Of a stretch of DNA of 64,000 bases, positions 1 through 58,069 are shown in pieces (positions within the stretch are counted from its first letter, which is position 1; the number at the start of each line of letters is the position of its first letter). Location: positions 124,001 through 188,000 of the forward strand of contig NZ_VFRQ01000007.1 in the NCBI RefSeq assembly GCF_006385705.1, in the 5' to 3' direction. The stretch comes from Pontibacter mangrovi (GTDB lineage Bacteria > Bacteroidota > Bacteroidia > Cytophagales > Hymenobacteraceae). The notes below the pieces were generated by a model that was given only the letters and a program-made list of their open reading frames with translations, ran no database searches and was not told the DNA's origin. The position numbers were made by a program, and so were the translations under genes.

Positions 1-2006
1 GCCTCGTAGGCTTTGAGCTGTCGCCGGTGCTCTGGAAGAAGATCAAGACCGGTCTTTCGGCAGGCCGTGTGCAGTCGGTGGCGGTGCGCCTGGTAGTTGA
101 GCGCGAGCGCGACATTGAAAAGTTTAAAGCAGAAGCCAGCTTCCGTATCACTGCCTCATTTGATGTACAGGGCCGCACACTGGAGGCAGAGCTTCCGCAA
201 AAGTTCAAGACCGAGGAAGAGGCACAGGCATTTCTGCAGCAATGTATCGGGGCAGAGTATAAGATAGAGAACCTGGAGCAGAAGCCGCTGAAGCGCAGCC
301 CTGCCCCGCCCTTTACCACCTCTACCCTGCAGCAGGAAGCCAGCCGCAAGCTATACTTCTCGGTGGCCCAAACCATGACCATCGCGCAGCGCCTGTACGA
401 GGCCGGTAAGATTTCCTACATGCGTACTGATTCGGTGAACTTGTCGGAAGAGGCCATCCAAGGAGCCAGCCAGGAGATCCAGCGTTCGTTCGGGGAGAAG
501 TTTGTAAAGAACCGCCGTTTCAAAACAAAATCATCCGGGGCACAGGAGGCACACGAGGCTATTCGCCCTACGGATTTTTCTAAAATGGTAGGCAGCTCAG
601 ACCGTAACGAGCAGCGCCTGTACGAGCTGATCTGGAAACGCGCCATCGCCTCGCAAATGGCTGACGCTGAGATCGAGAAAACAACCGTCACCATCGGCAT
701 CTCCACGCAGCCCGACCAGAAGCTGCAGGCTACCGGTGAGGTGATCAAGTTTGAGGGCTTTTTGAAAGTATACATCGAGTCGAAGGACGATGAAGAAGAG
801 GCTGACGAGGATGTGAAAGGCATGCTGCCGCCGCTGAGCATCGGCCAAAGTATAAATCTGCGCCAAATGCTGGCCACGCAGCGTTACAGCCGTCCACCGG
901 CCCGCTATACAGAGGCCAGCCTGGTGAAGAAACTGGAGGAAATGGGCATCGGTCGTCCGTCTACCTATGCGCCTACTATCTCTACCATACAAAAGCGTGG
1001 GTATGTGGAGAAAGACAGCCGCGAAGGCAAAGAGCGTAACTTCCAGGTGCTTACCTTAAGAGGCGATAACATCACCACCCAAACCAAAACCGAAATTACG
1101 GGAGCAGAGAAAGCCAAGCTCTTCCCGACTGACACGGCCATGGTGGTGAACGACTTTCTGGTCGAGCATTTCCCGAACGTGATCGACTACTCGTTTACAG
1201 CGCGTGTAGAGGCGGAGTTTGATGAGATTGCGCAGGGCCAGAAAGAGTGGGAAGACATGCTGGAGAAGTTTTACGAGAAATTCCACAAGCGCATTGAGTC
1301 GAGCGAGAACATTTCTAGGGCAGAGGTCTCCGGCGCCCGCGAGTTGGGCACTGACCCGGTAACAGGCAAAACCATCGTGGCAAAGCTTGGACGCTTCGGG
1401 CCTTACGTGCAGTTGGGCGAGGAGAACGAGGAAACCGGTGAGAAACCGGTGTATGCCAGCCTGCGCAAAGGCCAGTTCATTGAAAGCCTGGCCTTGGAGG
1501 ATGCACTGGAGCTGTTTAAGTTGCCGCGTATTGTGGGCACTTTTGAAGAAAAGGACATGACGGCGGCCATAGGGCGCTTCGGACCCTACATCCGTCACGA
1601 CGGTAAATTCTACTCGCTACCCAAAACGCTGGACCCGCTGAAGGTGACAGCCGAGGAAGCCATCGAGCTGATACAGGCCAAGCGCAAAGCGGACGCGGAG
1701 AAGCTCATCAAGTCTTTCCCGGAGAACCCCGACATACAGGTGCTCAACGGCCGTTACGGTCCCTACATTGTAGCCGGCAAAAAGAACGTGAAGATCCCGA
1801 AGGACAAGGAGCCGAGCGAACTGACACTGGAGGAATGTATAGCGCTGGCTGAGGCCACTCCGGAGAAGAAAGGCCGTGGCGGCTTCAAAAAGAAAGCTGA
1901 TGCCGATAAGCCGGCAGCCACGAAGAAAACTGCCACTAAAGCCAAGGCGGCATCCTCTAAAAAAGCCACTACCGCCAAGAAAGCTGCGCCGAAGAAAAAG
2001 GCATAG
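1..2006 (+). CDS. topA: DNA topoisomerase I, 3' part (5' end lies before the window)
   Basis: Type IA topoisomerase that relaxes negative supercoils by cutting one strand through a tyrosine. The reading frame is already open at base 3 (LVGFELSPVLWKK), so the true start and the Toprim domain lie upstream. The active-site tyrosine is in the motif SYMRTDS, with its codon at 417-419. Three C-terminal repeats of the type GRFGPY or GRYGPY (near 1390, 1571 and 1750) are the Topoisom_C repeats common in Bacteroidota TopA. A Lys/Ala-rich basic tail covers about the last 45 residues and probably binds DNA. A strong terminator follows at once. Confidence 0.97.
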   Translation, partial: LVGFELSPVLWKKIKTGLSAGRVQSVAVRLVVERERDIEKFKAEASFRITASFDVQGRTLEAELPQKFKTEEEAQAFLQQCIGAEYKIENLEQKPLKRSPAPPFTTSTLQQEASRKLYFSVAQTMTIAQRLYEAGKISYMRTDSVNLSEEAIQGASQEIQRSFGEKFVKNRRFKTKSSGAQEAHEAIRPTDFSKMVGSSDRNEQRLYELIWKRAIASQMADAEIEKTTVTIGISTQPDQKLQATGEVIKFEGFLKVYIESKDDEEEADEDVKGMLPPLSIGQSINLRQMLATQRYSRPPARYTEASLVKKLEEMGIGRPSTYAPTISTIQKRGYVEKDSREGKERNFQVLTLRGDNITTQTKTEITGAEKAKLFPTDTAMVVNDFLVEHFPNVIDYSFTARVEAEFDEIAQGQKEWEDMLEKFYEKFHKRIESSENISRAEVSGARELGTDPVTGKTIVAKLGRFGPYVQLGEENEETGEKPVYASLRKGQFIESLALEDALELFKLPRIVGTFEEKDMTAAIGRFGPYIRHDGKFYSLPKTLDPLKVTAEEAIELIQAKRKADAEKLIKSFPENPDIQVLNGRYGPYIVAGKKNVKIPKDKEPSELTLEECIALAEATPEKKGRGGFKKKADADKPAATKKTATKAKAASSKKATTAKKAAPKKKA

Positions 2007-2020
2007 TATAAAGTATAACT

Positions 2021-2061
2021 TAAACTAAAAGAGCACCTTAGCCAGGTGCTCTTTTAGTTTA
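2021..2061 (+). terminator. Rho-independent terminator after topA
   Basis: Perfect 18-bp inverted repeat (arms 2021-2038 and 2044-2061) with a 5-base loop. The GC core is GAGCACCT/AGGTGCTC, and the right arm runs into CTTTTAGTTT, giving a U-rich end on the plus transcript. Confidence 0.85.
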
Positions 2062-2090
2062 AGTATAATCAGGTCCTGCAAAAGCTATGT

Positions 2091-2130
2091 AAGTATAAAC
2101 CCACCCCTAACCCCTCCTAGGAGGGAATTT
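2091..2130. repeat. Dispersed intergenic repeat, copy 1
   Basis: About 40 bp starting with AAGTATAAACCCACCCCTAA and holding a perfect 14-bp palindrome (2112-2125, CCCTCCTAGGAGGG). A second copy, inverted, lies at 34889-34930 and includes the same flanking TTTATACTT. It is non-coding and sits between the topA terminator and the convergent methyltransferase gene. Confidence 0.6.
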
Positions 2131-2206
2131 GGTACTGTAGAAAAAACATCTCTTGGAACGGACTTGGGTGGCTAATGCGCGGGTTGATTAGGTATCAGCA
2201 CTATAC

Positions 2207-3391
2207 TTACTCCGCAGCCTCTCCCCCACTTTTGCGGGAGCCGCGGTATAATTCATACTTCAACAGGCGGCAATCGATGGAGCCGTTGTAGAGCGGCACG
2301 CGGCGGGAGGTGCGCAGCCCCACGTTTTTGGCCGCTTCCAGGTTGCCCGTAAATACAAAGGCATCGTAGCCCTGGTAGTTGTTCTTGAGCGTGTCCCCGA
2401 TATTTTTGTAAAGCAGGTTAATATCATCTGACTGGATTCGCTCGTTGTACGGCGGGTTCATCACCACCACACCATGGCCCTCCGGCGCATGTGTTTCAAA
2501 AAAGTTAGCCTGCTGCACCTGGATATAGTTCTGAAGCCCCGCGTTCTCGATGTTGTTCAAGGCAGCGTCTATGTAGTCGGCGTCCAGGTCGTAGCCGACG
2601 ATCTGCGCCTGCGGTGTGCGCTTTTCTTTGGCTTCGGCTGTGTTCCATACCATCTCAAACAGCGGCTCGCTATAGTCTTTCCATTTCTCAAAGCCGTACG
2701 GGTCGCGGCGGAACAGGCCGGGTGCGATGTTCTGCGCCATCAGGGCGGCTTCTATCAAAAAGGTACCGGAGCCGCACATCGGGTCAATGAAGGGCGACTT
2801 TTTATCCCAGCCGGACAGGGCAATGATGCCGGCGGCCAACACTTCGTTCAGCGGTGCCACGTTGGTTTGCAGGCGGTACCCGCGGCGGTGCAAGGACTCG
2901 CCGGAGGAGTCTAAGGAGAGCGTAACCAGATTATCGTGCATGTGCAGGTTGATGCGCACATCCGGTCGGATACGGTCCACGGAAGGACGTTCGCCTGTTT
3001 TCTTCCTGAACTGGTCCACGATGGCGTCTTTGGTGAGCTGGGCCACATACAGCGAGTGCTCAAAGGTAGAGTGGCTCACCACAGCATCAATGGCAAAGGT
3101 CATGTCCAGGTCCATCAGCTCTGACCAATCGGTTTTCTGCACCTGCTCGTACAGGTTCTTCTCGTCGCGGGCTTTAAACTGGCGGATGGGCTTCAGTATG
3201 CGGATGGCGGTGCGGCACCACAGGTTGGCCTCGTAAAGCTGGCGTAGGTTACCGGAGCAGGTCACGGCGCGGTTTCCTGCCTTTACAAACTCCATGTCCA
3301 GGTCGCGCAGCTCCTGGGCCAGTACCTCCTCCAAGCCGGCAAGCGTGGTGGCAATAATGTTAAAATTCTCGTTTGGTGCTTTCTTCGCCAT
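2207..3391 (-). CDS. rlmL: THUMP-domain RNA methyltransferase, RlmL (YpsC) type
   Basis: S-adenosylmethionine-dependent N2-guanine methyltransferase expected to act on 23S rRNA. The N-terminal third is a THUMP RNA-binding region. The catalytic half has the SAM site around FIDPMCGSGTFLIEAAL and the N6/N2 amino-methyltransferase motif NPPY. At 394 residues it matches the single-domain RlmL/YpsC form and lacks the RlmK half found in the long E. coli protein. ATG at 3391 is chosen because a TAnnTTTG box sits about 23 bases upstream. It is transcribed toward topA, and the dispersed repeat lies between them. Confidence 0.88.
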   Translation of the reverse strand: MAKKAPNENFNIIATTLAGLEEVLAQELRDLDMEFVKAGNRAVTCSGNLRQLYEANLWCRTAIRILKPIRQFKARDEKNLYEQVQKTDWSELMDLDMTFAIDAVVSHSTFEHSLYVAQLTKDAIVDQFRKKTGERPSVDRIRPDVRINLHMHDNLVTLSLDSSGESLHRRGYRLQTNVAPLNEVLAAGIIALSGWDKKSPFIDPMCGSGTFLIEAALMAQNIAPGLFRRDPYGFEKWKDYSEPLFEMVWNTAEAKEKRTPQAQIVGYDLDADYIDAALNNIENAGLQNYIQVQQANFFETHAPEGHGVVVMNPPYNERIQSDDINLLYKNIGDTLKNNYQGYDAFVFTGNLEAAKNVGLRTSRRVPLYNGSIDCRLLKYELYRGSRKSGGEAAE

Positions 3392-3413
3392 ACTTCATAC
3401 TTTTATCCAGCTG

Positions 3414-3421
3414 CAAAGATA
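3414..3421 (-). promoter_or_regulatory. -7 box for the rlmL-type gene
   Basis: On the minus strand this reads TATCTTTG, a perfect Bacteroidota -7 element (TAnnTTTG), followed by GCAGC. It lies 23 bases before the ATG at 3391. No clear TTTG was seen 19 bases upstream, so the -33 part is weak. Confidence 0.5.
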
Positions 3422-3556
3422 GCGCTAAGATTTAAGAGTTATGAATTTAGAATTATGAGCTCTGGTACTTAAGGTAATCCGGTCAATGAAGATTTAGATC
3501 CTGCGTTACACTATCTACGGCAGCTCTCGCAACATCATCAACTAAGAGCTCATCGT

Positions 3557-3587
3557 TTTTTACTCTTAACTACTAAAGTTATCTTTA
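3557..3587 (+). promoter_or_regulatory. Candidate murB promoter
   Basis: TTTT (3557-3560), exactly 19 bases, then TATCTTTA (3580-3587). This is one mismatch from the Bacteroidota consensus in each box. The murB ATG follows 17 bases later, giving a short leader. Confidence 0.5.
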
Positions 3588-3604
3588 CGGCAAATTACCC
3601 GCTT

Positions 3605-4621
3605 ATGAAACTGCAGACCGATTTCCCTTTAAAACCATACAATACCTTTGGCATAGATGTTAAAGCCAGGCTCTTTGCCCGCTTCGACTCTGTAGAAGAG
3701 CTACAGGAACTACTGCAGTTGCCCGAGCTAAAGCAAGAGCAGAAGCTTATACTTGGCGGCGGCAGCAATTTGCTGTTCACCAAGGATTTTGAGGGTGTGG
3801 TGCTGCAGAATGGCGTTAAAGGCATTGAAAAGGTAGCCGAGGACGAGGAGCATGTCTACTTGAAAGCCGGCGGCGGCGAAGTATGGCATGAGTTTGTACT
3901 TCATACTTTGTCTGAGAATCTAGGAGGCGTGGAGAATCTTTCGCTGATACCGGGTACTGTGGGCGCTGCCCCGCTGCAGAACATCGGAGCCTATGGCGTG
4001 GAGTTAAAAGACGTTTTTCACGAGCTGGAGGCGGTAAACCTGGAAACAGGTGAGGTGCGGGTGTTTGATAACGAAGCCTGCCGGTTTGGCTATCGCGAGA
4101 GCGTGTTCAAAAATGAGCTGAAGGGCCAGTACATCGTCACCCACGTCACGTTCAGGCTGCACAAAAAGCACAAGCTAAACACATCCTACGGGGCTATAAA
4201 ATCTACCTTAGAGGAAATGCAGGTGCAGGCGCCAAGCATACAGCATGTCAGCGCCGCCGTGTGCCACATCCGCCAAAGCAAGCTGCCCGACCCGAAGCAG
4301 ATCGGCAACGCCGGCAGCTTTTTCAAGAACCCGGAGATTCCGCTGGAGCAGTTTGAGGAGCTGCAGAAAAAATATCCTGAAATGCCCTCCTACCCTGTTT
4401 CAGAAACTACCGTGAAGGTGCCGGCCGGCTGGCTGATTGAGCAGTGCGGCTGGAAAGGCAAAGTACTCGGCAACTATGGCGTGCACAAGAACCAGGCGCT
4501 CGTGCTGGTAAACTATGGCGGCGCCAAAGGCCATGACATCCAGCAGCTTGCTCATAACATTATACAAACAGTAGAAGACAAATTCGGGATAAGGCTGAGT
4601 GCAGAGGTAAACATCATGTAA
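3605..4621 (+). CDS. murB: UDP-N-acetylmuramate dehydrogenase
   Basis: Cytoplasmic flavoenzyme that reduces UDP-GlcNAc-enolpyruvate to UDP-N-acetylmuramate with NADPH, the second committed step of peptidoglycan precursor synthesis. The FAD-binding part shows LGGGSNLLF near residue 50 and PGTVGAAPLQNIGAYG near 118. The substrate part has RFGYRESVFK and the catalytic-serine motif GNAGSFFKNP. Near the end are PAGWLIEQCGWKGK and AEVNIM, which carries the late conserved glutamate. Its 338 residues match the E. coli type I enzyme (342). Monocistronic by spacing, with its own candidate promoter. Confidence 0.97.
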   Translation: MKLQTDFPLKPYNTFGIDVKARLFARFDSVEELQELLQLPELKQEQKLILGGGSNLLFTKDFEGVVLQNGVKGIEKVAEDEEHVYLKAGGGEVWHEFVLHTLSENLGGVENLSLIPGTVGAAPLQNIGAYGVELKDVFHELEAVNLETGEVRVFDNEACRFGYRESVFKNELKGQYIVTHVTFRLHKKHKLNTSYGAIKSTLEEMQVQAPSIQHVSAAVCHIRQSKLPDPKQIGNAGSFFKNPEIPLEQFEELQKKYPEMPSYPVSETTVKVPAGWLIEQCGWKGKVLGNYGVHKNQALVLVNYGGAKGHDIQQLAHNIIQTVEDKFGIRLSAEVNIM

Positions 4622-5310: not shown

Positions 5311-6219
5311 TCAAGCGTCCTTCTCTATCTCGTGCGTCTCCACTTTCACGGCGTTATCCTCGGGCCGGATCCCGTTGTCGCGCATTCTGGAGTATACCTG
5401 CGTAAACTCCGCCCCCAGCAGAAAGATAACCGAGGCATAGTATACCCACACCAGTATCAGCACCAATGAGCCTGCCGCGCCATAAGTATCGGCCAGCGGG
5501 TCGTGTTGGAAGTAAATGTTGAGGATAAACTTGCCCAGCACAAAAAGCACCGCCGTTACGGTAGCACCCACCCATACATTAGGCCACCGAATTTTGGCAT
5601 CCGGCAGCACTTTAAAAATAGCAGCAAAGATGATAATACCGACAAGTATGGAGATAACCGCATTACCCGCCGTGATAAGGTAAACGGCGATCCCGGAGAA
5701 CTCCTCCCGCAGAAAATCGCTGATCAGTCCCATCACCACATCCACCGAGAGCGAGACCAGCAGCAGAAAGCCTAAACTTACCACCATGGCCAGCGAGAGA
5801 ACGCGCTCAACCACCAGTTTAACCCAGCCGCGCTCCGGCTTTGCCCGTACTTCCCACATGGCATTCAAAGAGTCCTGGAGCGCCACAAACACAGTGGTTG
5901 CCGAAAAAATCATGGTAGAGACACCGATAATGGTCCCCACCGTAGAACTGGCCGACTGATCTGCGTGCTCGATTATGTTCTGGATCTGCTGGGCGCCGCT
6001 GCGGCCCACGATGCCGCCTATCTGCCGGGCCAACTCACCCTGAACCGCCTCCTCGCCGAATACGATTCCGGCAATGCGCAGCGTGATAATTAGCACTGCA
6101 GGCAGCGAGAAAATAGTATAAAACCCGATAATAGCCGCCCAATCCAGAGGCCGGTCGTTGCCAAACTCTTTAAAGGTGCGCTTGATAAGGGTCCAGCTAA
6201 GTGTTAGTTTTTTGTTCAT
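5311..6219 (-). CDS. YihY/BrkB family inner-membrane protein
   Basis: 302-residue integral membrane protein of the YihY/virulence factor BrkB family, once called ribonuclease BN; its transport or other activity is not settled in the literature. About six hydrophobic helices are visible, starting with DWAAIIGFYTIFSLPAVLII near residue 27. The central family signature ATTVFVALQDSLNAMWEVR and the later FKVLPDAKIRWPNVWVGA are present. The C-terminus is hydrophilic and acidic. It stands alone on the minus strand and ends at the shared terminator. Confidence 0.85.
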   Translation of the reverse strand: MNKKLTLSWTLIKRTFKEFGNDRPLDWAAIIGFYTIFSLPAVLIITLRIAGIVFGEEAVQGELARQIGGIVGRSGAQQIQNIIEHADQSASSTVGTIIGVSTMIFSATTVFVALQDSLNAMWEVRAKPERGWVKLVVERVLSLAMVVSLGFLLLVSLSVDVVMGLISDFLREEFSGIAVYLITAGNAVISILVGIIIFAAIFKVLPDAKIRWPNVWVGATVTAVLFVLGKFILNIYFQHDPLADTYGAAGSLVLILVWVYYASVIFLLGAEFTQVYSRMRDNGIRPEDNAVKVETHEIEKDA

Positions 6220-45465: not shown

Positions 45466-46362
45466 TTGACACACCCTGACCTCCTCTCACAGTTCCAGAA
45501 CATCAACACCTGGAAGAGCAAAGGCACACGCGCACCGCACAAGCCTCTGCTTATACTTTTGACTTTAGGCGAGATTCAGCGAGGAAACACCGGTTTTATA
45601 CCTTACACAAGTATAGAGCCGAAGCTAAAAGACCTGCTGATCGACTTTGGACCTTACAGAAAGAGTTACTACCCCAACTTTCCCTTTACCAAGCTGGCAA
45701 ACGATGGGCTGTGGCAGTTAAATGAACCTGATCTGATCAACACAAAGCAGGATTATACTTCAAAGTTTCTGCGCGAACACCAGTTGGCGGGTAAATTCCC
45801 GGAGCATGTAACACAACCGCTAAGACAGGATCCGGAGCTAATCAAAAGTATAGCTGAAGTTATACTGGAGCAGAACTTCCCGGATACGCTGCACCAGGAC
45901 ATACTGGATGCTGTTGGTCTGGATCTGGCGCTCACGCCATCTACAGCTAACCGCCTTATCAAGCCAATTCGCAAACGCGACCCGCTTTTCCGGGAAAGTA
46001 TACTGAAGGCTTACGAGTACCAATGTGCTGTGTGTGGTTTTAGCGTACGGCTGCGGCACCAGCTGCTGGCTCTGGAGGCAGCACACATTATGTGGCACCA
46101 GGCTGGCGGACCGGATGTTGAGGTGAATGGTTTAGCCCTCTGTGCAACGCACCACAAGCTGTTTGATATGGGAGCCTTTACCGTGACAGAAGAGCTTAGA
46201 ATGCTGGTATCTAACGAGGTAAACGGCATTGGTGCGCAGGATTGGCTTATCAGGCACGATGGGAAGTCCATTAAGCCACCACAAAAGAAAGCTTTCTACC
46301 CCAACCCCGAGTTCACTGCCTGGCACGTAAACGAAGTATTCAAAGGCGGCTTTAGAAGTTAA
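45466..46362 (+). CDS. HNH endonuclease, phosphorothioate-DNA-binding type
   Basis: 298 residues. The N-terminal half begins LLSQFQNINTWKSKGTRAPH and continues HKPLLILLTLGEIQRG and FGPYRKSYYPNFPF, the pattern of the sulfur-binding domain found in Type IV enzymes that cut phosphorothioate-modified DNA (ScoMcrA group). The C-terminal half is an HNH nuclease: CAVCGF, LEAAHIMWHQAGG, NGLALCATHHKLFDMGAF (about residues 185-235). It would restrict incoming DND-modified DNA; no dnd genes are in this window. Starts with TTG at 45466. A decayed relative of its 3' end lies at 48085-48306. Confidence 0.75.
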   Translation: MTHPDLLSQFQNINTWKSKGTRAPHKPLLILLTLGEIQRGNTGFIPYTSIEPKLKDLLIDFGPYRKSYYPNFPFTKLANDGLWQLNEPDLINTKQDYTSKFLREHQLAGKFPEHVTQPLRQDPELIKSIAEVILEQNFPDTLHQDILDAVGLDLALTPSTANRLIKPIRKRDPLFRESILKAYEYQCAVCGFSVRLRHQLLALEAAHIMWHQAGGPDVEVNGLALCATHHKLFDMGAFTVTEELRMLVSNEVNGIGAQDWLIRHDGKSIKPPQKKAFYPNPEFTAWHVNEVFKGGFRS

Positions 46363-50172: not shown

Positions 50173-52101
50173 ATGCAGAGAATATACGAGCACGTGAAGG
50201 CAGTGCTGGAAAGCGACCCGCACTTTGCCGCAGACGGGAAACTATTGAAGAACACAGTGATGGAGGCGGCCTTGCAGCTAAAGCCAGAACTGCTGCGCCT
50301 GCTTACCGCAGACACCATCACCCGCCAGCATTTTTTTGAGGAAGTGGACGGCGTGCTCGTATTCGACAAGGTCAGCTTCCAGAGGTTTATCAGCAACAAG
50401 CAGTTCCTGCCCGACAGCTATACTTCCTTTAAGAACAAGATCGGCCTTACCGCCAACCACAGCTACCTCACCGAGGCCAAAGAGGTGGTGCTTTCCTTCC
50501 CTTACAAAGACTGCGTGCTGGAAGGCGGGCAGGCCAGAAACGAGCAGCGGCGGCAGGAGGTATTCTGGAACGAAACCCTGGCCCCCGACGAAATAGACCG
50601 GCTGCTGGAGCCCAAGGTGCTCACCAACTGGAAGAAAGTAACCGCAGCGGGCGAGCAGGAAGTGACAGCGCTTTCTAAACATGACAACTACCTCATCAAA
50701 GGCAACAACCTAGTGACGCTGCATACTCTACGCCAGGTATACCGCAGCAGTATCAAGCTGATTTACATCGACCCGCCCTACAACACCGGCAAAGACAGCT
50801 TCTGCTACAACGATAGCTTTAACCACTCGGCCTGGCTTACCTTTATGAAGAACCGGCTGGAAATAGCCCGGGAGCTGCTCACCCGCGATGGCGTGATCTT
50901 TATCTCGATCGACGTGAACGAGCAGGCCTACCTGAAAGTGCTCTGCGACGAGATTTTTGGCCGCGATAACTTTGTGGGGGAAATCATCTGGGAAACGGCC
51001 ACCGACAACAACGCCACCCAAATTTCAGTGGAGCATGAGTATGTGCTGTGCTATGCCCGCGACAAGGGCAGCCTCCCAAAATGGCAAATACAGTCTGAAA
51101 AGGCACGGCTGATTATGGAGAAGTATGAACAGCTGAAAGCAAAGCATGGGGAAGACACCAACCTGATAGAGAAGCACCTGCGCAACTGGATCAACAGCGT
51201 AAAGAAAACCAACGAGTATGACCTCTCGGGCGTGGCGCATTATACGTATGTGGATGAACAGGGTGTTTTTTACCCCGGCAACTCGGCCAACACCAAGCCT
51301 GGCGGCTACGATTTCGACATCGCCCACCCTGTAACGGGCAAAGTATGTAGCAAGCCCGCCAACGGCTACCGCTGGCCCGCCGACACGTTCTGGAAAGCTG
51401 ACCAGGCGGGCAATGTGCTGTGGGGCGAGGACGAAACCACCATCCCGAAAATAAAGAAGCGCATCGAAACGGCCACCGAGCTGCTGAAGGGCTACTTCTA
51501 CGAAGACAACCGGAAATCCACCAGCGCCCTATCCCGGCTGATGGGCGAGAAGGTGTTTGATAACCCCAAATCCATTAACCTGCTCAAGAAGATCATCAAG
51601 TTCTCTACCTCCGAAAACGACATCGTGCTGGACTTTTTTGCCGGCAGCGGTTCTACGGCGCAGGCAGTGCTGGAGGTAAACCAGGAACAGGGCACAAGCC
51701 GCACGTTTATACTTTGCGAGCAGATGGATTACATTGAGGAGGTAACGCGCAGGCGCATCCAGAAAGTGCTCGGGGAAGACAGCCTAACCTACTGCGAGCT
51801 GGCCGGTTGCAACCAAAACCTGATCGAAAAAGTACAATCCTGCTACACGCCCGAAGCGCTGCGGCAACTGGCGGCGGAAGTGCTGGCGAGCCCGTTTGTA
51901 ACCTATTCGTTGGCACAACCCCTGCGGCAGGTGTTGGCCGCGGTGCAGGCAGAGGACTCCGTAGAGAACCTTAGGCGGGCGTTGATAGCGGTTTTAGACA
52001 AGAACTGGCTCTACGTGCCGTATGCAGAGATGGACGATGCCGATTTCGGCTTCTCGGAGGTTACCAAACGTCTCACGCATCAGTTCTACAAGATGACATG
52101 A
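50173..52101 (+). CDS. Type III restriction-modification DNA methyltransferase (Mod)
   Basis: 642-residue N6-adenine methyltransferase of the beta class: the catalytic motif DPPY comes first (residues 200-203, IYIDPPYNTGKDSFCYNDSF), the SAM motif FAGSG later (about 489). Between them lies a target-recognition region of about 200 residues with WETATDNNATQISVEHEYVL and NRKSTSALSRLMGEKVF. The N-terminal 170 residues are typical of Mod of this type. It would methylate one strand of a short site. The next gene starts three bases after the stop. The leader holds AGGAGCTCCT (50128-50137), a 10-bp palindrome of unknown role. Confidence 0.93.
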   Translation: MQRIYEHVKAVLESDPHFAADGKLLKNTVMEAALQLKPELLRLLTADTITRQHFFEEVDGVLVFDKVSFQRFISNKQFLPDSYTSFKNKIGLTANHSYLTEAKEVVLSFPYKDCVLEGGQARNEQRRQEVFWNETLAPDEIDRLLEPKVLTNWKKVTAAGEQEVTALSKHDNYLIKGNNLVTLHTLRQVYRSSIKLIYIDPPYNTGKDSFCYNDSFNHSAWLTFMKNRLEIARELLTRDGVIFISIDVNEQAYLKVLCDEIFGRDNFVGEIIWETATDNNATQISVEHEYVLCYARDKGSLPKWQIQSEKARLIMEKYEQLKAKHGEDTNLIEKHLRNWINSVKKTNEYDLSGVAHYTYVDEQGVFYPGNSANTKPGGYDFDIAHPVTGKVCSKPANGYRWPADTFWKADQAGNVLWGEDETTIPKIKKRIETATELLKGYFYEDNRKSTSALSRLMGEKVFDNPKSINLLKKIIKFSTSENDIVLDFFAGSGSTAQAVLEVNQEQGTSRTFILCEQMDYIEEVTRRRIQKVLGEDSLTYCELAGCNQNLIEKVQSCYTPEALRQLAAEVLASPFVTYSLAQPLRQVLAAVQAEDSVENLRRALIAVLDKNWLYVPYAEMDDADFGFSEVTKRLTHQFYKMT

Positions 52102-52104
52102 CAC

Positions 52105-53202
52105 ATGGCGCTTTCTAACTTCAGGAAAGAAACATCGGAACGCAGCGACCCGCACAACTGGGCAAAGGCCATGCTGGCACGCCTCACCGATTTCTTTTTT
52201 GAAGCGATAGAAGGCTGCAGCCAGAGCAACGCCAATGTGGTGACGCACCTGATGGAGCGGGCCCGCGTAACGGTGGACGACAGGCCCAAGTCGGCCCCGC
52301 AGGAAGTGCTGCAGGCGCTGGTGGAGTTGGAAGCCCCCGACGCCCTGGACCGGAAGATCCGGTTTGCCCGCCACTTTAACCTGCCCCTGAGCTACGTGTT
52401 GTACAGCAATGAGCGGGAGAAAGTATACCTCCTGGAGATTCCCTCCCTGATTGACATTAAGCACGTCCGCACGTTCAACTCCTTTAAAGCGTTTGCCGAC
52501 TGGCTGGCCAGTATCAAAGGGTGGGTATCTACCAAACCCTACCGCGAATCAGCCGACCTGCCCTACTTTGACCAGGAGCTAAGAAAGTATGGCACCGCCT
52601 GGCCCACCAACATCGACTGCTTTTTTACAGATGAGCAGCACAAGCCGCTAGGTATGATTGAGTTTCAGAACGCCCGGGACACCGGCGTAATGCAGCACTG
52701 CAACAACGACCACTTCCTGTGCAAAAACGTCCGGCAGGTGCAGGGGGCATCGGGGGTACAGCTAAAGTATAGCGATGACATCAGAAGGTGGACCTCCCAG
52801 GAAATTCTGCGGGTGCAGTCGGGCTTGCGGCTCTTCATCGTTACGTGGGCGCAGCACGAGCCGGGCTTTGTGCTGAAAGAGCTGGAAAAAGTAACCATGC
52901 CATACTTCCCTGAGCAGAAGGGCAAACCCAAGTGGCAGGAGGCCGATGCTTACAAAGCCAGGCTGCACAGCTATGTTAAACAAAACAAACCAGTAAGTAT
53001 AGAACAGGATATATGCGTAAATTACAGCACCGTCAGCTTTTCCTTTTGCGATGGCAAAATGAACAAAACCATACATCAGCCGCCACTAAACCCCTTGAAC
53101 AAGACTTTCCCATCGCTGTATTATTATTTTAAAAAGAAAGTGACAAACGACCGCCAGCAGCTTCCGGCGCTCCTGTCCGCTTTATGCAGCAACCAGGCCT
53201 AA
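52105..53202 (+). CDS. Unrecognised protein between mod and res, nuclease-like pattern
   Basis: 365 residues, not a usual member of Type III loci. Helical N-terminal part (residues 1-95), strands to 140, then a core YFDQELRKYG (Glu158), NIDCFF (Asp171) and GMIEFQNA (Glu186, Gln188). This spacing resembles a PD-(D/E)xK nuclease with a Q in place of the final K. The C-terminal half has RLFIVTWAQHEPGFVLKELE and later strands. No signal peptide. Its place, three bases after mod and meeting res, suggests a third subunit; a nuclease role is inference. Confidence 0.65.
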   Translation: MALSNFRKETSERSDPHNWAKAMLARLTDFFFEAIEGCSQSNANVVTHLMERARVTVDDRPKSAPQEVLQALVELEAPDALDRKIRFARHFNLPLSYVLYSNEREKVYLLEIPSLIDIKHVRTFNSFKAFADWLASIKGWVSTKPYRESADLPYFDQELRKYGTAWPTNIDCFFTDEQHKPLGMIEFQNARDTGVMQHCNNDHFLCKNVRQVQGASGVQLKYSDDIRRWTSQEILRVQSGLRLFIVTWAQHEPGFVLKELEKVTMPYFPEQKGKPKWQEADAYKARLHSYVKQNKPVSIEQDICVNYSTVSFSFCDGKMNKTIHQPPLNPLNKTFPSLYYYFKKKVTNDRQQLPALLSALCSNQA

Positions 53203-53204
53203 CC

Positions 53205-55223
53205 ATGCAGACCCTCAACCAACAGAATCCAGCAACTATTAGTATGGACGTGCAGGCCACGGCGCTGCCTCAGGAGATAACGCATAACCTGAACCCGCAC
53301 TTTCAGGTGCGCCCTTACCAACGGGAGGCTTTTCTGCGCTTTATAACTTACCTGAACCAGCACCCTACCCGGCCGCGGCCCACGCAGCTGCTCTTCCACA
53401 TGGCTACCGGCAGCGGCAAAACGCTGGTAATGGCTGGCTGCCTGCTGCACCTCTACCGGCTGGGCTACCGCCACTTCATCTTTTTCGTGAACAGCTCCAG
53501 CATCATCGAAAAGACCCGCGATAACTTCCTGAACCCCCTTTCTTCCAAGTACCTCTTCGCCCCTGCCCTTTTTATGGATGGGGCGCAAGTGGCGCTAAAG
53601 GAGGTGCAGCATTTTGAGGCGGCCAACGGGCGCGATCTACACATCGTGTTTACCACCATCCAGGGCCTGCACTCCCGGCTGAACACGCCCCGCGAGAACA
53701 GCCTGACCTACGAGGACTTTGAGGACCGGAAGATCGTGCTGCTCTCGGACGAGGCGCACCACATTAATGCAGAGACCAAAAAAGGAAAGTTGAGCAAAGA
53801 GGAAGCCGAGGCTGTGACAAGCTGGGAAAGCACCGTCACAAAGCTGTTCCACGCCAACCCCGACAATATTCTGCTGGAGTTTACGGCCACCGCCGATTTT
53901 ACCAACCCTGAGGTAAAAGCCAAGTATGAGGACAAGCTCCTGTTTGATTACCCGCTGCGGCAGTTCCGGAAAGACGGCTACTCGAAGGAGGTAAAAGTGC
54001 TACAGGCCGAGCTGCCGCCTTTTGAGCGGGCTGTGCAGGCCATCATCCTTAGCCAATACCGCCGCAAGGTGTTCGAAGGCAAGGGCAAGCACGTAAAGCC
54101 GGTGCTGCTGTTTAAGTCCAGGAGCATTGCAGAAAGCCAGGCCTTCTTTGCTGCCTTTGTGCAGGGCATGAAAACACTGGACGCTACCTTCCTCAACCAC
54201 CTAAAACACTTGCACACGGACACCGTGTTGCACCGGTCTTTCGCTTATTTTGCTGCCAAAGGAATAACACTTGAAAACCTGGTAGCCGAGCTGCAGGAGG
54301 ATTTTGCGGAGGAAAAGTGCTTGGTAGTTGACAGCCGGAACGACAGCGACGAAAAGCAGCTCCTGCTTAACAGCCTGGAGGAGGAGAAAAATCAGTACCG
54401 CGCCGTGTTTGCCGTGGACAAGCTAAACGAAGGCTGGGATGTGCTCAACCTCTTCGATATTGTGCGCCTGTACGATACCCGCGATACTGAAAAGAATACC
54501 GGGAAAATAGGCCGAACCACGATGTCGGAGGCGCAGCTGATCGGGCGCGGGGCCCGCTACTATCCGTTTCAGCTCCACGAAAACCAGCCCAAATACCAGC
54601 GCAAGTATGATGATGACCTGGAAAACGAGCTGCGCATCTGCGAAGAGCTCTACTACCATGCTTCCTACAATCCGCGCTACATTTCGGAGCTAAACAAGGC
54701 TTTGGTGGAGATAGGCATTAAAGCTGCAAACCCGGTGCCGCGAAAGGCTGTTGCCAACACGCCTCGCCAGGTCAGCCCGGAGAAAGAAAAGAGTCAGTTC
54801 AGGGGTTTAGAATTGCCTGCGACCCTGCGCAACCGCCGCTACCAGTTTACCCTTGCCTCCGGCTATACCAGTGAGTCGGCCATACTTGGCGAGGTGGCCC
54901 CGGAACTGCCGCCGCAGGAAAGCCATACTATAAAATTGCTCTCCTTAGGCCATCCAGTGCTCCGCAAAGCCATGGACCGGCTGCCCTTTTACCATTTCGA
55001 CCGGCTAAAAACGCTTTTCCCGCAGTTGCCGTCCGTTTCTGAGTTTATCACCTCGCCACTTTTTTTAGGGGAAGTACAGGTGAGTGTTAATGGCAATAGG
55101 GAGCAGCCCGAGCGCCTGCCCCCGCCGGAAAAGCTGCAGATAGCCTACCAAGTGCTGTGCGAAATCTCCGTAGAGCTATCGCGTGTTGCACCTGCCGCCG
55201 CGCCGCCTATCGCTGCCAAGTAG
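53205..55223 (+). CDS. Type III restriction helicase (Res) without the C-terminal nuclease
   Basis: 672 residues from the ATG at 53205, two bases after the preceding stop; an ATG at 53184 overlaps that gene by 19 bases and is also possible. SF2 helicase: Walker A HMATGSGKT (from about residue 66 of the 53205 form), DEAH box LLSDEAHHI, motif III EFTATADF, then FAVDKLNEGWDVLNLFDIV and EAQLIGRGARYYPF for motifs V and VI. After the helicase core the protein continues YYHASYNPRYISELNKAL but ends with PAAAPPIAAK. The usual PD-(D/E)xK endonuclease domain (normally reaching 900 to 1000 residues) is missing, and no remnant of it follows in any frame I read. Confidence 0.9.
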   Translation: MQTLNQQNPATISMDVQATALPQEITHNLNPHFQVRPYQREAFLRFITYLNQHPTRPRPTQLLFHMATGSGKTLVMAGCLLHLYRLGYRHFIFFVNSSSIIEKTRDNFLNPLSSKYLFAPALFMDGAQVALKEVQHFEAANGRDLHIVFTTIQGLHSRLNTPRENSLTYEDFEDRKIVLLSDEAHHINAETKKGKLSKEEAEAVTSWESTVTKLFHANPDNILLEFTATADFTNPEVKAKYEDKLLFDYPLRQFRKDGYSKEVKVLQAELPPFERAVQAIILSQYRRKVFEGKGKHVKPVLLFKSRSIAESQAFFAAFVQGMKTLDATFLNHLKHLHTDTVLHRSFAYFAAKGITLENLVAELQEDFAEEKCLVVDSRNDSDEKQLLLNSLEEEKNQYRAVFAVDKLNEGWDVLNLFDIVRLYDTRDTEKNTGKIGRTTMSEAQLIGRGARYYPFQLHENQPKYQRKYDDDLENELRICEELYYHASYNPRYISELNKALVEIGIKAANPVPRKAVANTPRQVSPEKEKSQFRGLELPATLRNRRYQFTLASGYTSESAILGEVAPELPPQESHTIKLLSLGHPVLRKAMDRLPFYHFDRLKTLFPQLPSVSEFITSPLFLGEVQVSVNGNREQPERLPPPEKLQIAYQVLCEISVELSRVAPAAAPPIAAK

Positions 55224-57404: not shown

Positions 57405-57860
57405 CTAGTCGTCAAAACTATACTTGGCATCGCTCCAGAAGGCATCCAGCGCTATCAAGCGGGGCTTCAGAAAGGAAATCAGCGCTGGCCAATCCTCCTT
57501 GTTGAAGACGCTGACAGGGGCAATCTCTTTGTAAATGCGGCTCACGGTGCGTCCGGATTCGTCGGTGGTGTGCAGCACCCAGTCCCACTCCTCGCCTAGC
57601 GCCTCGTGCAGCATGGTCTTGTGCTCCAGAAACTGCTCATACACCAGCTCCTGCAACTCGGTGTCCGGGTGCGCCAGCTCTATGGCAATGTAGGCGCGCT
57701 TCTTGTCGGCATCCATGCGGAAAAACACGTCCTTCACGCCGGTTTTATAGTTTAGCCAGTTCACCTTCCACCCTTCCGCCGACAGTTGCGGCGAGAGGTA
57801 TTGCCCAAAGGTTGTCCAGAACTGTTGGCGTAGCTGGGATGCTTGTTCTCGGGTATACAT
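57405..57860 (-). CDS. DUF4268 family protein
   Basis: 151 residues from the ATG at 57860 (MYTREQASQLRQQFWTTFGQ). An in-frame start 99 bases upstream has no support. The WLNYKTGVKDVFFRMDADKK segment and LEHKTMLHEALGEEWDW are the DUF4268 landmarks. Such domains occur alone and in larger proteins with nuclease links; alone the function is unknown. A -7-like box lies five bases upstream, so the message would be nearly leaderless. Confidence 0.85.
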   Translation of the reverse strand: MYTREQASQLRQQFWTTFGQYLSPQLSAEGWKVNWLNYKTGVKDVFFRMDADKKRAYIAIELAHPDTELQELVYEQFLEHKTMLHEALGEEWDWVLHTTDESGRTVSRIYKEIAPVSVFNKEDWPALISFLKPRLIALDAFWSDAKYSFDD

Positions 57861-57864
57861 GCGG

Positions 57865-57897
57865 CAAAAATACTCATTTAACTGCTTCTGTGGCAAA
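57865..57897 (-). promoter_or_regulatory. Candidate promoter of the DUF4268 gene
   Basis: On the minus strand TTTG (57894-57897), 21 bases, TATTTTTG (57865-57872). The spacing is two bases longer than usual. Confidence 0.38.
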
Positions 57898-58069
57898 ACA
57901 TGCTCTTTAGCCACCTGGTTGATACTTCTTTTAGTTGATGAAATCTGCCCCCTCGGCAAAACTTTATCGCACTTTAACGTTTATCATAAAGGCTGCCGCA
58001 ATGCTGTGTTTCATAACATTGCCAAATACAGATATTATGGCGCCGCAGCGTTTCATTTTAGAACAATTT

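Follow-up and report, generated by a model that had tools for sequence, protein, structure and literature searches.

A predicted PD-(D/E)XK nuclease of the EXQ type encoded between the mod and res genes of a Type III-like operon in Pontibacter mangrovi

Restriction systems that pair a separate nuclease with an ATP-dependent partner are exemplified by CglI and NgoAVII, in which the nuclease needs a helicase-like ATPase (PMC4267653, PMC5737866). In these systems, the nuclease is of the PLD family and carries a B3-like DNA-binding domain, the methylase forms 5-methylcytosine, and the DEAD helicase bears a Z1 domain (PMC4267653). For the Type III enzyme EcoP15I, the N-terminal domain of Mod is described as contributing to the interface of the Mod dimer, and the C-terminal domain of one Mod as contacting Res (PMC4490356). 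A further point of comparison is the EXQ active-site variant, documented in BglII and CoiA (PMC1189080). The origin of restriction-modification types from one another is an unsettled question; a hypothesized link among Types I, II, and III has been tested by altering a Type I system (PMC6158711). Judged by title and abstract opening among the matches listed, we found no publication describing a Type III operon in which the nuclease has a gene of its own.

Here, we describe a candidate operon of this kind in a window comprising 64,000 nucleotides of Pontibacter mangrovi (contig NZ_VFRQ01000007.1, positions 124,001 to 188,000). Its genes are ordered mod-X-res, with a gap of 3 bases between mod and X and an overlap of 19 bases between X and res. 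The features discussed below, in window coordinates, are:

50173..52101, forward strand: mod, Type III beta-class N6/N4 DNA methyltransferase, 642 aa, with a TypeIII_RM_meth N-domain (Pfam, PADLOC)
51058..51537, forward strand: target-recognition region of Mod, about residues 296-455, common to six X-linked Mods (identity comparison)
52105..53202, forward strand: X, predicted PD-(D/E)XK nuclease of the EXQ variant, 365 aa (ORF, family conservation, AlphaFold models)
52615..52617, forward strand: codon of D171, predicted metal ligand (identical in 10/10 members)
52660..52668, forward strand: codons of E186-x-Q188, predicted catalytic pair (identical in 10/10 members)
53184..55223, forward strand: res, Type III SF2 helicase/ATPase subunit, 679 aa, without the C-terminal nuclease domain (Pfam, PADLOC, motifs)

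The operon and the distribution of the X family

The mod product contains the Type III N-domain as well as the catalytic domain, with PF12564 (E 1.9e-22) and PF01555 (E 1e-40) both above cut-off, and also matches PADLOC's MTase_III (E 9.4e-138). The res product matches PF04851 (E 1.8e-28); against PADLOC's REase_III, its best stretch (residues 18-513) corresponds to positions 16-509 of the 873-position profile. X is a single ORF in the window, running from the ATG at 52105 to the stop at 53202. Querying Pfam, NCBIfam, PADLOC, and PHROGs with its translation (E up to 1) returned zero matches, as did a search of PDB sequences (E up to 10). X represents a protein family named by none of the libraries searched, for which the loci described here suggest a predicted function. 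Elsewhere in the window, ~4 kb upstream of mod, lies a gene for a 298-aa HNH_2 protein (PF13391, E 1.4e-11; 45466-46362, forward strand), a possible second restriction-type nuclease, and downstream of the operon a gene for a 184-aa DUF4268 protein (PF14088, E 1.8e-36; 57405-57959, reverse strand).

Ten members of the X family were counted in total, the window protein included, all of them bearing the putative core described below (P0001, L007, L008, L009, L010, L063, L011, L012, P0002, P0004). Full-length relatives at 48-54% identity occur in three Calditrichia MAGs (L007, L008, L009) and a Saprospirales MAG (L010); a further relative, at 46% identity, comes from a genome of the same order as the latter (L063). 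More distant relatives (23-30% identity) are found on a Halobaculum plasmid, on two halovirus contigs, and in a Fusobacterium phage. The initial annotation had raised the possibility of a three-gene variant of Type III restriction, and in keeping with that proposal the mod-X-res order recurs in the three Calditrichia MAGs.

By these sequence searches, the family is rare. The only match among 99 close-relative genomes was the window's own, and the same was true when 395 genomes across the phylum were queried with the X family profile. In the phylum of L008, the profile recovered 3 of 40 genomes, all three previously found; in the order of L010, it recovered 2 of 139, one of them new (L063). Genome contigs scanned with a single X sequence gave no match, and the alignment-based scan led to four loci. 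Viral scans using single X relatives, an alignment of close X relatives, or the Mod recognition region returned no match, and one further viral scan for X found only two contigs already known. Some candidates were rejected along the way: the 359-aa ORF of viral contig L006, which we read as a portal protein, has little in common with X beyond the string IDCFFTDEQ, and L002 and L003 (E 0.003-0.008, with internal stops) were discarded as noise.

The halovirus relatives of X adjoin a ribonucleotide reductase gene, and no methylase was seen near the halovirus or Halobaculum relatives in the stretches read. Because these relatives have no visible methylase there, the family does not seem to be only a restriction partner, and the haloviral context suggests that it also has other uses. 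The neighboring ribonucleotide reductase is 1356 aa long in L012 (3814-7884), as compared with 996 aa in L011 (4885-7875); in our reading, the extra stretch in L012 looks like an intein.

Active site and predicted fold of X

By both its conserved residues and its structural models, X resembles an EXQ-variant nuclease of the PD-(D/E)XK type. The defining signature, an aspartate followed by (D/E)-x-K or by an accepted substitute for the lysine such as Q, is matched by D171, E186, and Q188. The initial annotation had placed the active site at E158, D171, and E186-x-Q188. When checked across homologs, the last three of these residues hold, being identical in 10/10 members from Bacteroidota, Calditrichia MAGs, halovirus, Halobaculum plasmid, and Fusobacterium phage. 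E158 was rejected as a catalytic residue: column 158 reads E, A, A, T, A, A, A, N, V in nine aligned members, whereas D156, D171, E186, and Q188 are identical in 9/9, and the tenth member, L008, also carries these four. Invariant columns number 24 in an eight-row alignment and 22 after addition of a ninth member, and three of the four residues proposed at first (D171, E186, Q188) fall among them. Conservation extends, besides D156, to N169, H198, N200, N201, D225, R228, and W229; near the N-terminus, E9 and E12 are identical in all eight alignment rows extending that far.

Pattern searches were also made. The loose pattern D-x(8-20)-[DE]-x-[KQ] is present in 28 of 37 crude window genes and in 1877 of 2000 shuffles of X, and because it is so frequent in both it was rejected as worthless. 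A stricter pattern with hydrophobic context, devised after seeing X, occurs in 1 of the 37 genes and 6 of the 2000 shuffles. At the level of sequence, residue conservation is better evidence for the putative active site than pattern matching.

AlphaFold models of two members, the window X and a halovirus member, reached best pLDDT values of 79.0 and 80.5, with a pTM of 0.81 each; each was built from only 7 sequences, and the five models of the first protein ranged in pLDDT from 79.0 to 58.1. The X model places a helix at 154-161, a strand containing D171 at 168-175, a strand containing E186 and Q188 at 181-189, a helix at 226-239, and a strand at 242-248; the halovirus model has the same element order. 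This predicted order fits the second half of the PD-(D/E)XK core: within the alpha-beta-beta-beta-alpha-beta arrangement, only the D strand, the EXQ strand, the helix, and the final strand were recognized, and the first helix and strand were not identified.

Structural comparison of the models using VIA-align gave as best rows the archaeal Holliday-junction resolvase Hjc, both for the window X (2eo0; Z 7.9, 3.4 A over 115 of 130 residues) and for the halovirus member (4tkd; Z 7.3, 3.3 A over 110 of 117), with SPARDA chains at Z 7.0-7.2 in the comparison of the latter; every match of either model lies below Z 8, a range in which a match may reflect only a common arrangement. Hjc and the SPARDA domain are PD-(D/E)XK nucleases. 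The range of X aligned with 2eo0 is 18-365, nearly the entire protein. Inorganic pyrophosphatases and YTH domains, which are not such nucleases, appear at lower Z, and Foldseek returned no PDB match below E 0.001 for either model. On these models, a PD-(D/E)XK fold is likely. We consider it highly probable that X has nuclease activity. Among viral structures, the best match to the X model is A0A2U8UWC8, an uncharacterized 307-aa protein of Streptomyces phage Salete (Foldseek BFVD E 3e-5, probability 1.00), with a TM of only 0.30/0.35 despite this E value.

Res and Mod in systems with and without X

The window Res retains the motifs GSGKT (76), DEAH (189), TATAD (234), and GRGAR (454), and what is observed of its motor is these intact ATPase motifs only. 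Reading its 679 residues to the end, we found no nuclease motif; the next ORF begins 128 bases past the stop. Full-length relatives have a C-terminal domain with PDF..(I/L/V)EPKG, present in two of them as FEPDF..FIEPKG near residue 790. Where Type III systems have an SF2 helicase fused to a C-terminal PD-EXK nuclease, the window Res is helicase only, and the nuclease loss that the initial annotation had supposed is confirmed by the absence of this motif.

The Res nuclease motif was compared between systems with and without X. The motif is intact in all 16 relatives read from systems lacking X (L022 to L031, L034 to L039). Seven of these are all the other genomes (7/7) of the phylum sample in which Res was matched, and nine come from the 224 plasmid records; none of these genomes and plasmids yielded a match to X. 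In L022 (Res at 1495-4118), a frame change parts the intact nuclease motif from the helicase, and in L030, L035, and L037 translation with the code used places the motif on a second open piece; L037 comes from Mycoplasmopsis, where Res is annotated as one gene. Among the four mod-X-res systems, Res could be read in three, that of L009 being cut by the contig end, and none of the three (0/3) keeps the nuclease site. In the Calditrichia the motif is altered, to PDF..FIADRR in L008 and to PDF..FIANRK in L015, another contig of the L007 genome that is taken as the remainder of the L007 Res. The Res rows from systems with X form one clade (97/96), adjoining the X-less L029; since they are monophyletic, they constitute one evolutionary contrast and not three, and the sequences are consistent with loss of the Res nuclease and gain of X having been a single event, as they may have been. 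L029 (Chryseobacterium plasmid pA2BH1), the closest X-less relative by Res, encodes a different 145-aa ORF between mod and its full-length res (5564-6001).

In Calditrichia, the helicase part of Res is constrained and the former nuclease part relaxed. Between L015 and L008, the one pair of MAGs from which this split derives, dN/dS is 0.197 for the helicase part (first 530 codons compared; bootstrap interval 0.13-0.28) and 0.446 for the ex-nuclease part (last 154; 0.25-0.83), the latter being higher in 99.25% of 2000 bootstraps; 0 of 376 sliding windows across the helicase reach 0.446. Values for X are 0.16-0.25 (three pairs) and for Mod 0.15-0.17 (two pairs). Because the helicase dN/dS is low though the nuclease site is gone, the Calditrichia Res motor appears to be still in use.

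X also occurs in systems of other composition. In L010 and L063, a Mod (450 and 458 aa, respectively) is followed by an alpha/beta hydrolase gene and then by X, with no Res adjoining. No match to the window Res was found in the L010 genome, in a search in which the three Calditrichia genomes matched, or in the L063 genome, in a search without a positive control; completeness is unstated for both genomes. These Mods contain the catalytic Pfam domain, give no match to the Type III N-domain, and align with the C-domain of the window Mod over only 38-39 of 112 positions. The two X proteins are 75.8% and the two Mods 78.0% identical, with synonymous sites near saturation (pS 0.82 and 0.74); as identity is high where synonymous sites are near-saturated, X and Mod look to have been kept by selection. 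The intervening hydrolase (L010, 7059-7997; L063, 8000-8941) is 77.6% identical, likewise with near-saturated synonymous sites. The Fusobacterium phage carries its X relative after an unrelated Eco57I-type methylase (PF07669); this relative is interrupted by an in-frame stop, with both pieces in one frame. The Type II layout of separate methylase and endonuclease genes fits L010, L063, and the phage, but not the window, where Res is present.

The six Mods linked to X resemble one another in the target-recognition region, with 63-98% identity among their 15 pairs and 66-97% in the cores. Their recognition regions are 8-23% identical to those of nine X-less Mods found by Res similarity and 28-44% identical to those of two X-less Mods found by this region; the nine X-less Mods, compared pairwise, show 10-38% in the recognition region and 40-58% in the cores. 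Because the X-linked Mods are closer in the core too, this contrast is not a clean control, and the common region, as expected if X itself reads the site, weakly supports that idea. The proposition that the region occurs only with X was rejected, as 16 genomes besides the window's match it at E 1e-8; when a comparable sample of equal size was queried with the X profile, the sole match was the genome of the window itself. Of the 16, three were fetched (L058, L059, L060) and two read, both of them without X. The recognition region of L058 is identical to that of the window at 70 of 151 positions (46%), alongside its own intact Res with PDF..ESK, and that of L059 at 47 of 153. In both, recognition-region identity divided by C-domain identity reaches the level seen in pairs of X-linked Mods, contrary to our reading of the region as tied to X. 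In the Mod core tree, the X-linked rows are grouped (100/99); in the N-domain tree they are unresolved (41/82), with the X-less L029 nearest the window.

Proposed role of X and comparison with known systems

We consider it reasonably probable that X is a site-specific PD-(D/E)XK endonuclease that makes the operon's cut with its own recognition. Mod would methylate host copies of the site; X would probably recognize the same site alone, as a Type II enzyme does, and be blocked by Mod methylation; and unmarked sites would be cut through the predicted PD-EXQ center (D171/E186/Q188). Res, its nuclease lost, would be kept as an ATP-driven motor, most likely one that loads, moves, or licenses X, by analogy with the CglI/NgoAVII helicase; this coupling of the Res motor to X is put forward tentatively, as a possibility not far from evenly balanced. 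In the Saprospirales relatives, the motor would have been dropped, leaving Mod and X in a Type II layout assembled from Type III components. The case for Type II-like recognition by X is indirect, and X-less systems with a related recognition region exist (the 46% match in L058, with its intact Res).

The initial annotation had suggested that X supplies the cut as a separate subunit. Its nuclease-like character and the loss of the Res nuclease are in line with that suggestion, but its retention without a detected Res is not. In the fullest form of this idea, X would stand in for the lost nuclease as a subunit of a Type III complex: it would bind Mod and Res, have no site recognition of its own, and cut where the complex directs it. 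Such a role would suit the loss of the Res nuclease where X is present, the tight operon with its X/res overlap, the purifying selection on the Calditrichia Res helicase, and the one recognition region that six X-linked Mods have in common. We nevertheless judge it unlikely: X is maintained where no Res was detected and where Mod lacks the domains that in EcoP15I make the dimer and Res contacts, and relatives of X occur with an unrelated methylase in a phage and with none visible in haloviruses. Because it is kept without a detected Res and beside an unrelated phage methylase, X seems more like a Type II restriction enzyme taken up by a Type III operon.

An explanation that dispenses with the motor altogether would have X as a plain Type II restriction enzyme and Res as a decaying leftover with no role. 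X relatives without a detected Res exist, and the nuclease domain, deleted in the window and relaxed in Calditrichia, has the appearance of decay; the ATPase motifs kept in the window and the constraint on the Calditrichia helicase (dN/dS 0.197) do not, and we regard this explanation as rather doubtful. A further reading, that X has a nuclease-like fold yet is no nuclease and instead partners Mod in a DNA-binding, regulatory, or inhibitory capacity, is quite improbable. The absence of any family or PDB sequence match, the middling structural Z, and the N, H, and W residues as invariant as the D, E, and Q would all accord with such a partner, but the acidic pair and glutamine are identical in 10/10 members on two successive strands, and the operons of the window, L010, and L063 are otherwise without a recognized nuclease. 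These alternatives overlap with parts of the main explanation, and their probabilities are not meant to sum to one.

Returning to a site-specific X served by the Res motor, the loci could be read as surviving stages of an evolutionary passage from Type III to Type II restriction. A Type III operon would have taken up a site-specific PD-EXQ nuclease, after which the Res nuclease decayed; the Res motor would have come to serve the new enzyme, and Mod would have been fixed on a single recognition sequence. The Saprospirales relatives would have shed the motor along with the Mod domains that held it. We regard this series as somewhat less likely than not. If this reading is true, these loci would be natural intermediates bridging Type III and Type II restriction, and they offer a testable example of a Type III motor that lacks a nuclease of its own.

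Compared with known systems, the window operon resembles Type III of the EcoP15I/EcoP1I type (Mod2Res1) in its TypeIII_RM_meth and N6_N4_Mtase Mod, its ResIII helicase, and its mod-then-res order, but it has the extra gene X and a Res without the C-terminal PD-EXK nuclease; as this defining nuclease is absent from Res, the operon is not standard Type III. X shares with Hjc and the SPARDA nuclease chains the top VIA-align rows of both models, but identity is 8-14% with Z below 8, and Hjc, at 117-130 residues, is far smaller. The D...EXQ active-site variant predicted for X is that described for BglII and CoiA (PMC1189080), although PDB sequence searches detected no sequence relation of X to either. 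With CglI and NgoAVII, the operon has in common three genes for a methyltransferase, a separate nuclease (predicted for X), and a helicase-like ATPase without a nuclease. Here, however, the nuclease appears to be of the PD-EXQ type, and Mod and Res descend from Type III subunits. No PLD-family HXK nuclease was found in X, which has no Pfam match and whose sole invariant histidine, H198, is followed by x-N200, and the methylase is an N6_N4_Mtase rather than a 5-methylcytosine methyltransferase. Because its nuclease and methylase come from other families, the operon is not a member of the CglI/NgoAVII class; by analogy of gene arrangement, that class is the nearest known counterpart of mod-X-res.
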